Position numbers and translations under genes: made by a program. The notes under the pieces were generated by a model. It was not told the DNA's origin. It saw only the letters and a list, made by a program, of their open reading frames with translations, and made no database searches. A stretch of 64,000 bases of DNA, taken from Jiangella mangrovi. Lineage in GTDB: Bacteria > Actinomycetota > Actinomycetes > Jiangellales > Jiangellaceae. The stretch's first letter is position 1. Every line of letters starts with the position of its first letter. The stretch lies in assembly GCF_014204975.1 (NCBI RefSeq), contig NZ_JACHMM010000001.1:6262037-6326036 (forward strand), written 5' to 3'. Positions 8,493 through 63,648 of the stretch are shown here, piece after piece.

Positions 8493-8531
8493 ACCTCTCC
8501 GTGACCGCGGACAGGCTCACGCCCGCCGGTT

Positions 8532-8590
8532 TCCATGATCATCAACCTTTCGCGTCGCCAGGGCAGCACAAAAGGGTTGTTGATCATGGA
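8532..8590. repeat. inverted repeat, 19/20-base arms
   Basis: The left arm TCCATGATCATCAACCTTT (8532-8550) pairs with 8571-8590, whose reverse complement differs by one substitution and one inserted C. The loop is 20 bases. It is AT-richer than its surroundings and lies between the operators and the LacI 3' region, with no gene over it. It could be a terminator for leftward transcription or a binding site. Confidence 0.7.
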
Positions 8591-8730
8591 GAGCGGCCGG
8601 CGAGACCCAACCCCGGCGGAACCGCCTGCCGAACACCACACGAGAACCGTCAGCGGCCAGCGGGACAGGAGTACGGCGGGTCTGAGGGCCGGGTCCATTC
8701 CGGGGAGGGGGCCCTGGTGCTGTTGAAGGC

Positions 8731-8825
8731 GAGGGCGCGGCGGCGCGGGTCAAGTCCAAGCCCCCGACCACAGCGCCCAACGCAACCACAGAGGGCGCGG
8801 ACTTGAGGCGTGCCGCCGCGCCCTC
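8731..8825 (-). repeat. nested palindrome family, copy C (3' of the LacI gene)
   Basis: The arms 8731-8757 and 8799-8825 are 27 bases each and pair at 24 positions. One of the three mismatches would be a G-U pair on one strand; the other two form a CC/CC mismatch (read on the minus strand) inside GCCTCAAG...CTTGACCCGC. The same core and mismatch occur in copies A (16468-16600) and B (50585-50722). The loop holds GTGGTTGCGTTGGG (8776-8789, minus strand), also found beside copy A. The rest of 8465-8880 holds no convincing gene. Confidence 0.75.
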
Positions 8826-8880
8826 GACAATCGAGACAGCAGTGGGCCCGACCCACGCCAAGACCCCACCGCCGAACGCG

Positions 8881-16467: not shown

Positions 16468-16600
16468 CCCCGTCCCCCTGCTGCCCATTCTCTTGGCCGC
16501 GCACCTGCGCCTCAAGCGGACTGATGGCGCTTCGCGCGGAGAAGACCGCTTGACCCGCAGGCGCGCGGCCTAAGAACGGGCAGCTATCAGGGGACGGGGG
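16468..16600 (+). repeat. nested palindrome family, copy A (3' of the AraC gene)
   Basis: A 133-base structure. Outer arms CCCCGTCCCC and GGGGACGGGG enclose CTGCCC/GGGCAG, then CTTGGCCGCG/CGCGGCCTAAG, then GCGCCTCAAGCGG/CCGCTTGACCCGC around a short inner GGCGCTTCGCGC. The last stem has a two-base CC/CC mismatch. Copy B at 50585-50722 has the same plan with paired base changes. Flanking sequences GTGGTTGCGTTGGG (16451-16464) and 16597-16623 recur at 50882-50924 without the palindrome. Confidence 0.85.
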
Positions 16601-16635
16601 GAGTCTGGCGACGGGTGCGGGGTTACTGCGTCGTC

Positions 16636-16677
16636 GGGAGGGACTTTTCCTCGCTATAGCGGGGAGAACTCCCTCCC
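16636..16677. repeat. long hairpin H1, apex CCTCGCTATAGCGGGG
   Basis: The arms GGGAGGGACTTTT and AGAACTCCCTCCC pair with one or two mismatches and carry an inner self-complementary CGCTATAGCG. It lies in the intergenic space between the convergent AraC and siderophore-interacting genes, with a sister hairpin 10 bases away. Confidence 0.7.
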
Positions 16678-16687
16678 GGCGAGCGCC

Positions 16688-16729
16688 GTGGGCGCGTTAC
16701 TCCTGCTATGGCGGTAGTAACTCGCCCAC
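16688..16729. repeat. long hairpin H2, apex CCTGCTATGGCGG
   Basis: The arms GTGGGCGCGTTACT and AGTAACTCGCCCAC pair at 13 of 14 positions around CCTGCTATGGCGGT. The apex nearly repeats that of H1 (CCT-GCTAT-GCGG shared) although the arms differ, so the two look like members of one hairpin family. It lies 25 bases past the 3' end of the siderophore-interacting gene. Confidence 0.7.
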
Positions 16730-50584: not shown

Positions 50585-50722
50585 CCCCGTCCCCCTGCTG
50601 CCCAGTGTCTTAGCCGCAGGCCCGCGCCTCAAGCGGACCAATAGGGGCGCTTCGCGCCAGGGAGGACCGCTTGACCCGCGGTCCCGCGGCCAAGAACTCT
50701 GGCAGCTATCAGGGGGACGGGG
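50585..50722 (+). repeat. nested palindrome family, copy B (3' of the GH36 gene)
   Basis: A 138-base relative of copy A with the same order of stems: CCCCGTCCCC/GGGGACGGGG, CTGCC/GGCAG, CTTAGCCGC/GCGGCCAAG, CGCGCCTCAAGCGG/CCGCTTGACCCGCG and the inner GGGGCGCTTCGCGCC. Bases differing from copy A often change on both sides of a stem (for example CTGCG/CGCAG against CCGCG/CGCGG). The CC/CC mismatch is kept. Confidence 0.85.
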
Positions 50723-50752
50723 AGACCCTGGGCACGCCTCGCCGGCGTCGAG

Positions 50753-50852
50753 ATCCTGGTCTCCCGTCACATCCTGGTCCCCCGTCACGCCCGCGAGCCG
50801 AAATCGGCCGTTTCGCGTGACGCCAGACCAGGACGTGACGGCAGACCACGAC
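50753..50852. repeat. 100-bp dyad of four 18-bp units around a central palindrome
   Basis: Units at 50753-50770 and 50771-50788 (ATCCTGGTCTCCCGTCAC and one-base variant) are in tandem. Units at 50817-50834 and 50835-50852 are the same motif inverted, also in tandem. Between them lies CGAAATCGGCCGTTTCG (50799-50815), itself a palindrome. The reverse complement of the right units matches the left at about 14 of 18 bases. No coding potential is evident. Confidence 0.8.
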
Positions 50853-50881
50853 GTCACACCCAGGACCAAGCAGGCCGCGCG

Positions 50882-50924
50882 ACCCCGCACCCGTCGCCAG
50901 ACTCCCCCAGCGCAACCACGCGCG
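50882..50924 (-). repeat. unfilled relative of the copy A flanks (3' of the Zn-dehydrogenase gene)
   Basis: On the minus strand GCGCGTGGTTGCG...TGGG runs directly into a 27-base stretch (50882-50908) identical to 16597-16623. In copy A the same left and right parts are separated by the 130-base palindrome. It begins one base after the stop codon of the dehydrogenase gene. Confidence 0.75.
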
Positions 50925-50925
50925 C

Positions 50926-51948
50926 TCAAGCCAACCGCGGGTCCACGTGCACCTTGGGCCCTGGCCCGACCTCGTACTCGCCGCTCAGCACCGCGCCGAC
51001 CTGGTCGAGGCCGACGGTGGCGCCCACCAGGGGCCGGGGGTCGACCGTCCCGCTCGCATAGGCGGAGATGGTGGCGGCCAGGCCGGGCGAGGCGGACAGG
51101 ATGCCGATCGCCGTCACGTCCTTGAAGACCAGGGTCCGGGTGTCGAACATGCTCGGCGTGACGGACAGGCCGATGTAGACGACCCGGCCGCCGGGCTCCA
51201 CCACATCGGCCGCATACGCCGGCAGGTGCGAGGCGGTGGCGGCGTCGACGACGGCGTCGAAGGGCAGGTCGGGGACGGCGCCCTCGGGCCAGACGTGGGT
51301 GAAGCCGAGGTCCGAGGCGAACCGCAGCGACGACTCGGTGCGGCCCATCAGGTGCACCTCGGCGCCGGCAGCACGGGCGAACATCGCCACGAGCAGGCCG
51401 ATGGTTCCCGGCCCGAACACCAGCAGCCGGTCCCCCTCGCCGACCCCGGCGGCCACGGCCGCGCGCAGGGCGTTCCCGCCGGGCTCGACCAGCGCGCCGA
51501 GCACGGCGTCGACGGAGTCGGGCAGCTCGTGCAGCGACGAGACCGGGACGGCGATCTGCTCGGCCAGCGCGCCGGGCCGGCCGTCGCGGATGCCCACCTC
51601 GCCGCGCCGCTCGCACAGGTGCTGGGTCCCGCGACGGCACCGCCGGCACACGCCGTCGCCGATCATCGTGTCGCCCATGACCCGCCGGCCCAGCCAGGCG
51701 GGGTCGACGCCGTCGCCGATCGCGGAGACGACGCCGGACCACTCGTGCCCGGGCCGCAGCGGGTAGGTGGTGTGGCCGGTGTGCAGGTAGGCCATGTGGC
51801 CGTGGAACAGCTCGGCGTCGGTGCCGCAGACGCCGGCCCGCTCGACGTCGACGACCGCCTCGCCCGGTGCGGCGACCGGGCGCGGGACCTCCTGGACGAC
51901 GCACTTCCCCGGGCCGGTGAGCACGACGGCCCGCATAGAGCCGCTCAT
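50926..51948 (-). CDS. zinc-dependent alcohol/polyol dehydrogenase (MDR family)
   Basis: 340 residues from the ATG at 51948, overlapping the IclR stop; an ATG at 51936 is possible. Catalytic-zinc residues Cys41 (GVCGTD) and His68-Glu69 (GHEW) are present. The structural-zinc loop has only three Cys (101, 104, 112) with Asp98 at the first position. The Rossmann motif FGPGTIGLLVA follows. It resembles threonine, sorbitol or galactitol dehydrogenases. It is coupled to the IclR gene and divergent from the sugar-acid dehydratase operon. Confidence 0.9.
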   Translation of the reverse strand: MSGSMRAVVLTGPGKCVVQEVPRPVAAPGEAVVDVERAGVCGTDAELFHGHMAYLHTGHTTYPLRPGHEWSGVVSAIGDGVDPAWLGRRVMGDTMIGDGVCRRCRRGTQHLCERRGEVGIRDGRPGALAEQIAVPVSSLHELPDSVDAVLGALVEPGGNALRAAVAAGVGEGDRLLVFGPGTIGLLVAMFARAAGAEVHLMGRTESSLRFASDLGFTHVWPEGAVPDLPFDAVVDAATASHLPAYAADVVEPGGRVVYIGLSVTPSMFDTRTLVFKDVTAIGILSASPGLAATISAYASGTVDPRPLVGATVGLDQVGAVLSGEYEVGPGPKVHVDPRLA

Positions 51949-63390: not shown

Positions 63391-63531
63391 ATGACGGGCC
63401 AGGGAGAGGAACTACTGCGCGCTGCGCTCGCACTGCCGCGCGGCGATCGCGCCGATGTCGCCGCTCAGCTGCTGGCCAGCCGTCTGGCTCGGGCCCTGAC
63501 CGAAGATCGTCCAGGATTGGTGGCGCTATGA
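63391..63531 (+). CDS. small protein, weakly like putative addiction-module component
   Basis: 46 residues: EELLRAALALPRGDRADVAAQLLASRLARAL has the Leu-x2-Ala-x-x-LP-x2-(D/E)R-x2-(L/V)A-x2-L pattern of the short addiction-module component family. It begins nine bases after the encapsulin stop. No toxin partner follows. It could be a real small antitoxin-like protein, a remnant, or a chance frame; its stop lies inside the hairpin at 63511. Confidence 0.45.
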   Translation: MTGQGEELLRAALALPRGDRADVAAQLLASRLARALTEDRPGLVAL

Positions 63532-63546
63532 CACCACCAATCCTGG
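63511..63546. terminator. perfect 13-bp hairpin after the encapsulin operon
   Basis: CCAGGATTGGTGG and CCACCAATCCTGG pair perfectly around a ten-base loop that contains the stop codon of the small frame at 63391. No T-tract follows. Position between the encapsulin operon and the multicopper oxidase gene fits a terminator. Confidence 0.7.
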
Positions 63547-63648
63547 ATGATCATCAGCCGGCCCAGGAACCGGCCGAGAATCCCTGGATTTCGGACAGTA
63601 CGGTGGTGGGTACTCGGCATCAGAAGCGGCTTGGGTCAAGGTCGGAGC

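Follow-up and report, generated by a model that had tools for sequence, protein, structure and literature searches.

Paired hairpins after Jiangella genes as candidate ends of a composite non-coding unit with polarity relative to replication

The stretch of DNA analyzed here (the window, 64,000 nucleotides of the Jiangella mangrovi genome) contains three strong palindromes just downstream of genes, and the question they raise is whether they act as signals in RNA or spread as DNA. A preliminary description had located them at 8731–8825, 16468–16600 and 50585–50722 and had argued from their orientation relative to genes that they function at the RNA level, as terminators, stabilizers or sources of small RNA. 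The three palindromes are indeed found at these places and fold strongly, with z-scores of –6.2, –9.0 and –7.4 for the sense strands against dinucleotide shuffles. As described, all three contain the same mismatch, a CC/CC internal loop between GCCTCAAG and CTTGACCCGC, and all lie 3' of genes, at spacings of 8, 36 and 55 bases between stop codon and hairpin in our own gene calls. The gene before the copy at 8731–8825 (copy C) belongs to the LacI family, as proposed. The three loci form one family, but not one kind of hairpin, as copy C has outer arms unlike those of the other two and belongs to a separate subtype. The 3' placement holds for all three, but their common sense orientation is uninformative for two of them, since these lie in convergent gaps, where a hairpin is in sense orientation to one neighboring gene whichever way it points.

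The J. mangrovi genome is a single contig of 7,162,500 bp. The core GCCTCAAG..CTTGACCCGC, with 25–55 nt between its two parts, has 51 exact copies in it (23 forward and 28 reverse), and a reversed-pattern control has no match in the same genome. The CC/CC mismatch is present in 120 of 122 copies from J. mangrovi and related species, collected with a pattern that did not demand it. As suggested in the preliminary description, 38 copies were used to build a covariance model (R1), which enlarged the family. R1 finds at least 70 places in the genome at 91 bits or more on the better strand, counted among the best 150 of 10,792 candidates; an earlier first look scored 40 of 104 candidates, and all copy numbers are therefore lower bounds; the density of strong copies is at least about one per 100 kb. 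In the 38-copy alignment 96.5% of the cells pair. The check for covariation was positive: 85 cells are double-changed compared to a mean of 27 after shuffling, with 0 of 500 shuffles as high, and to at most 23 when the partners are slid out of register.

The family appears to be bound to one genus. R1 matches 11 of 60 genomes, all of them Jiangella, which corresponds to 11 of the 12 Jiangella genomes (J. mangrovi included, and one with a single weak match); it matches none of 10 genomes from other genera of the family and none of 38 from the class. An outer-arm pattern with 23 specified bases is found in 75 stretches of GTDB contigs, all titled Jiangella, and in no viral contig, and viral carriage was rejected on this basis. 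Rfam has no match in the window. Such repeats are undescribed in the literature naming Jiangella, within a limited coverage of subscription journals, and the word part “palindrom” occurs in the available portion of the J. gansuensis genome paper solely inside the name CRISPR (PMC5292007). The broader literature, with subscription journals mostly outside its scope, likewise contains no paper recognizable as describing the family. In the draft genome of J. ureilytica (stretches L145–L164), several contigs end at or within a hairpin copy, as is expected of repeats that break assembly.

The hairpins are 95–149 nt long and the copies are mosaics, with outer arms of either type I (CCCCGTCCCCCTGCTGCCC..GGGCAGCTATCAGGGGGACGGGG) or type II. 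Both types keep the CC/CC loop beside a TCAAG/CTTGA stem and a one-sided bulge (CTAT in type I, CACC.. in type II), and the arms and loops between these elements are exchanged among copies. According to their flanks, type I hairpins fall into classes A and B and type II hairpins into IIa and IIb. Two non-identical hairpins, A/B or IIa/IIb, face inward around other palindromes and form the ends of a composite non-coding unit of about 0.3–1 kb. A and B signatures occur together in 27 gaps, all inward-facing, and in 19 of these a hairpin or outer arms are present at both ends; IIa is paired with IIb in 7 gaps. The flank-signature search gave no AA or BB gaps. These signatures tolerate errors and also match genes (67 times for A and 36 times for B), so some of the signatures that lack a hairpin are due to chance. 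The terminal sequence AGGTTC is present in part of the units, and the centre palindromes are also found in some gaps without any hairpin. Centre deletions with variable ends occur as well, and 6 of 69 outer-arm pairs span less than 90 nt. Model matches of 48–54 nt were considered as empty sites and rejected, as their endpoints vary like those of the centre deletions. A candidate 3-kb autonomous copy (3124803 on the plus strand and 3127858 on the minus strand) was also discarded, as its two hairpins lie in separate gaps.

In the window, copy C (8731–8825, minus strand) was assigned by inverted-repeat search, folding and end typing as a type II hairpin of the IIb end, with the CC/CC loop in a core at 8746–8809. 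A tail at 8826–8880 on the same strand connects the LacI stop codon to the hairpin, as seen from the sequence and the gene calls, and an inverted-repeat search identifies a centre module in the same gap, the palindrome CCATGATCATCAAC / GTTGATCATGG at 8514–8608. The hairpin at 16468–16599 (plus strand) is a type I B end according to folding, typing and a covariance model score of 136.3 bits. It is followed by the B inner-flank signature GGAGTCTGGCGACGGGTG at 16600–16617 (plus strand, from sequence and flank-signature search) and by two centre palindromes: module F3, GGGAGGGACTTTTCC, at 16631–16682 (inverted-repeat and module searches) and module F4, GTTACTCC..GGTAGTAAC, at 16688–16729 (read from the sequence). 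The third hairpin (50585–50722, plus strand) is a type I A end by the same three methods, with a score of 148.8 bits. Its inner-flank signature GAGACCCTGGGCACGCCTCG at 50722–50741 (plus strand, from sequence and flank-signature search) is followed by a palindromic centre module resembling F6, CCTGGTC..GTCACG, read from the sequence at 50751–50857. The unit, 50585–50925, is closed by a B end without hairpin at 50880–50925 on the minus strand, in which GCGTGGTTGCGCTGGG is joined to GGAGTCTGGCGACGGGTG; it was found by the flank-signature search, whose hairpin flag is wrong at this end. The longest inverted repeat of the window is located at 63481–63576, with 43-nt arms that are 72% complementary and 10 nt apart, and lies outside the hairpin family as far as its sequence tells.

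Placement relative to genes was analyzed in 60 stretches of the genome (1.264 Mb, 17.6% of the total) with genes called by a custom script. The stretches were picked for holding copies, so gap fractions in them differ from genome-wide rates, and copies near 7.04, 7.12 and 7.14 Mb lie outside them. From 89 pattern matches, 5 in genes were dropped (three of them being one site in three transposase copies); the outer-arm filter leaves 84 hairpins, all intergenic, of which 82 could be typed and 2 could not. Convergent gaps hold 46 of the 84 (in 36 gaps out of 174), tandem gaps hold 37 (in 30 out of 712) and divergent gaps a single one (in 1 out of 179), which supports the earlier claim of a non-random placement relative to genes; a stricter filter gives 36 convergent, 31 tandem and 1 divergent gaps. 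In convergent gaps, the 5' side of the hairpin faces the nearer stop codon in 46 of 46 cases. Within the copy-bearing stretches, 14-mers repeated in at least five gaps cover 41% of the bases in convergent gaps, 16% in tandem gaps and 2.3% in divergent gaps, and 0.07% of the coding bases.

The borders of the repeated sequence are close to stop codons. Sequence homology between unrelated loci breaks off at most 20 bp from the stop codon on 72 of 102 stop sides; for start codons, this is so on 1 of 32 sides. In tandem gaps the stop side is the closer one in 27 of 30 cases, or 24 of 27 when three flank-limited start values are left out. The sequence GGTTC directly follows the stop codon of 23 of the 102 hairpin-side genes compared to 1 of 974 other genes. 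Among 37 occurrences of AGGTTC near the 102 stops, 19 overlap the stop (TGA) by its last base and 3 overlap TAG by its last two bases. Contact between repeat ends and stop codons is already known with another sequence, as the available excerpts of a study on REPs report that the ends of GTAG REPs frequently provide neighboring genes with a TAG stop (PMC3733652).

The units also have a polarity relative to replication. The dnaA gene is located at 1,924,199, and with a second switch set at 3.95 Mb, a point chosen after the polarity flip was seen, the B or IIb end is origin-proximal in 63 of 68 units, or 76 of 82 when typed hairpins are counted. A fit of gene-strand bias that leaves the repeats out places the switch at 3.90–3.95 Mb. 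Without any assumption about the terminus, and with a circular chromosome assumed, agreement is 30 of 31 for units up to 2 Mb from dnaA and 4 of 5 for those up to 1 Mb away; no copy is present among the matches listed in the 1.2 Mb around dnaA (1.24–2.44 Mb). The window copy at 16468 belongs to a unit of opposite polarity. Agreement is found in 32 of 36 convergent gaps, where it is informative because the genes impose no polarity, in 26 of 27 leading-strand tandem gaps, in 4 of 4 lagging-strand tandem gaps and in the sole divergent gap. The lagging-strand cases imply that the polarity of the unit follows the fork and not the gene. A second genome (G008, dnaA at 1.127 Mb) has the same polarity with weaker agreement: within 2 Mb there are 17 agreeing, 3 opposing and 2 mixed units, and up to the midpoint 24 agreeing, 6 opposing and 3 mixed ones, with end types set by eye for 47 listed copies, one of which was untypable and dropped. 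Another genome (G010, 14 copies listed) was left out of the count, as its flanks look A-like throughout and its ends could not be typed. Palindrome instability acting through the hairpin alone was rejected as a cause of the polarity, because the two hairpins of a unit point in opposite ways.

We consider an RNA-level 3' element, i.e. a terminator, 3' stabilizer or source of small RNA spread by recombination and kept by selection, to be unlikely. It would agree with the 3' placement and the near absence from divergent gaps, with the 5' sides turned toward the nearer stop in convergent gaps, with the strong folds and covariation, and with the fact that most sites are common to the closest species, J. 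ureilytica. Tests that distinguish the strands point mostly the other way. In 58 flanks no U-tract follows the hairpin, as T makes up a fraction of 0.13 and no T run is longer than 1; the antisense side gave a single match in the same test, which carries no information. In the type I middle arms, counting distinct arm pairs once, the sense strand has 518 Watson-Crick pairs, 73 A·C, 52 other mispairs and 3 G·U. An A·C on the sense strand is a G·U on the antisense strand, so these mispairs would be wobble pairs on the antisense strand; base preference may contribute to the A·C excess, as G is scarce among the mispairs as a whole. Of the 92 type I copies, 76 have the better fold as antisense RNA, with a mean difference of 5.35 kcal/mol. 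The type II hairpins favor the sense strand (18 vs 11, 18 of 29), and the short inner arm has 11 G·U and 1 A·C on that strand. An RNA element also fits poorly with two ends per unit, with the centre-deleted forms, with the turnover of sites between species described below and with a polarity that persists in convergent gaps. The orientation to genes, from which an RNA role had originally been argued, follows from the geometry of the unit, as the hairpins are its outward-facing ends. The U-tract, mispair and polarity tests thus led us to reject an RNA signal as the main explanation, and the polarity suggests spreading DNA instead. Some copies may nevertheless have an effect on RNA.

Comparison between loci and species reveals both dispersal and stability. 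Unrelated loci have near-whole units in common (968 nt at 92%, 982 nt at 89% and 404 nt at 89% identity), and the match spans nearly the whole gap in 5 of 6 gaps. In 159 gaps syntenic with J. ureilytica (G011), 7 hairpin gaps are shared, 1 is found in J. mangrovi only and 1 in J. ureilytica only, where J. mangrovi carries the hairpin of the other end. With 7 of 9 hairpin gaps shared, no insertion is demonstrably recent in this species pair, and the species comparisons gave no empty site of a whole unit that is exact to the base. Hairpin loci map into the hairpin stretches of J. mangrovi in 20 of 25 cases for J. ureilytica and in 9 of 50 for five other species, the latter being close to the share of the genome in these stretches; the mapping needs more than 2 kb at more than 78% identity, and rearrangement also lowers the count in distant species. 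J. muralis has about 0.6 kb after a gene whose J. mangrovi orthologue lacks it, and a related unit at another place (468 nt at 88% identity) differs in one arm pair, on both sides. Thus, there is gain or loss of sites, and both arms of a pair can change at once. Template switching could bring about such paired changes, and covariation alone is therefore no proof of selection on RNA.

Our preferred explanation, which we hold to be somewhat better than an even guess, is that a composite non-coding unit, with the hairpins at its two ends, would spread in Jiangella as a non-autonomous mobile element. Such a unit would insert at or just after stop codons, the replication fork would determine its orientation, and the intermediate or the target may be single-stranded. 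Insertion of this kind would explain why the units favor 3' positions, why their hairpins face inward, why they are scarce in divergent gaps and genes, and why they have a polarity. The 3' placement would result from target choice together with purging from operons and promoters, and any effects on RNA would be secondary. The CC/CC loop, the TCAAG/CTTGA stem and the one-sided CTAT bulge would be recognition marks for a putative enzyme. At sites shared with J. ureilytica the inner modules differ, which counts against a mobile unit, because gene conversion or template switching would also produce such differences. Gene conversion or recombination between old copies, overwriting ancestral gaps module by module without transposition, would explain these exchanges of arms and loops between otherwise similar copies. 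It seems quite unlikely to us given the presence and absence after the same gene in J. muralis and J. mangrovi and the low overlap of sites with the five other species. Very unlikely, in our judgment, are polar chromosome marks, kept in one orientation and read by the replication, repair or segregation machinery in the way of oriented motifs such as KOPS and Chi. The polarity of the units, seen also in G008, and the invariant CC/CC loop and bulge would fit such marks; their sparseness, their absence around dnaA among the copies listed, and one Jiangella genome without a match and another nearly so would not. Moreover, it is the unlike A and B flanks that give a unit its polarity, since its two hairpins point in opposite ways.

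The search for a mobilizer in the 12 Jiangella genomes covered the Y1_Tnp and RVT_1 profiles. Y1_Tnp (PF01797, RAYT) has no match in any of them and matched 5 of 14 control genomes, so RAYT was rejected as the mobilizer. RVT_1 (PF00078) matches one of the 12 (G005), which itself lacks the hairpin, and a retroelement origin was rejected on these grounds. By analogy with IS200/IS605, the polarity would point to a fork-coupled single-strand step. We propose, tentatively and with considerable doubt, that a two-ended unit inserts at stop codons in fork orientation by a single-strand mechanism that involves neither Y1/RAYT nor reverse transcriptase, with a putative replication-coupled mobilizer that would read the CC/CC-bubble hairpin.

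IS200/IS605-type elements have subterminal hairpins and a Y1 transposase, and their targeting of the lagging-strand template would give a polarity to replication. The Jiangella units resemble them in the subterminal hairpins and the polarity, and differ in the lack of a Y1 transposase. MITE-type palindromes include ERIC, NEMIS, Correia and BOX. Like these, the Jiangella repeats are at least 100 nt long, intergenic, foldable and non-coding; unlike these, each unit has two different hairpin ends, and no matching transposase was found in the search for Y1. Intrinsic terminators differ from the Jiangella hairpins in having a U-tract. In the available parts of three papers, REP, BIME and REPIN sequences are extragenic palindromes in inverted pairs and mosaic composites, located mostly in convergent or same-direction gaps, bound to species or genus, and composed of hairpins of 20–40 bp with an unpaired GTAG or CGTC tag (PMC2817692, PMC3116915, PMC3733652). 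As far as these excerpts allow the comparison, the Jiangella palindromes are similar in their inverted pairs and composite units (27 A/B and 7 IIa/IIb gaps), extragenic location, preference for convergent and same-direction gaps and restriction to a genus, but differ in the greater hairpin length. They also differ in the size of the units with two distinct ends, the absence of RAYT and the fixed polarity to replication. Inspection of the Jiangella alignment by eye gave no unpaired GTAG or CGTC tag. CGTC-tagged REPs, as presented in the available part of one of these papers, have stems of 8–9 bp, an unpaired tag and no dedicated transposase (PMC3733652). On this partial view the Jiangella units are alike in that no dedicated transposase was found (Y1 searched), and differ in that CGTC lies in the type I outer arm, mostly within the pairing. 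Because RAYT is absent and size and tag differ, we do not file the unit as a REP; it is best read as working like a BIME or MITE.

REP- and BIME-like repeats are tied to RAYT, and a family with similar habits that has fork polarity and a stop-codon register but no RAYT would suggest a different way for extragenic palindromes to spread. Selected regulators and selfish DNA that chooses its targets become testable alternatives, as any complete Jiangella genome can be scored for its end types, polarity and register with stop codons. The family also calls for caution, since strong folds, covariation and 3' placement, the usual evidence for function in RNA, occur here in apparent mobile DNA.

Other repeats were also observed. 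A Mutator-family transposase gene is present in three near-identical copies (genome positions 495602–496850, 3205845–3207093 and 6378217–6379465; stretches L076, L089 and L120), which sit in gaps between hairpins as if these were safe landing sites. It was considered as the unit's own transposase and rejected, as its repeated block stops short of the hairpins, and we read it as a guest. A block of about 700–726 nt, 99.9–100% identical, is common to the gaps at 529362, 3126422, 3204394 and 5605698 and enters the neighboring gene; it probably represents a further insertion element of recent date. Next to the orthologue of the gene at 50926–51936 of the window in a further genome (G004, stretch L138), a convergent gap of about 60 bp has as its sole content the palindrome CATGATCATCAACCTT..AAGGTTGATGATCATG. 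Finally, a tandem repeat of about 60 bp with a TGA in each unit lies at a gene end and has more copies in J. ureilytica (G011, stretch L161, 4083–4499) than at the corresponding J. mangrovi position (1245346).
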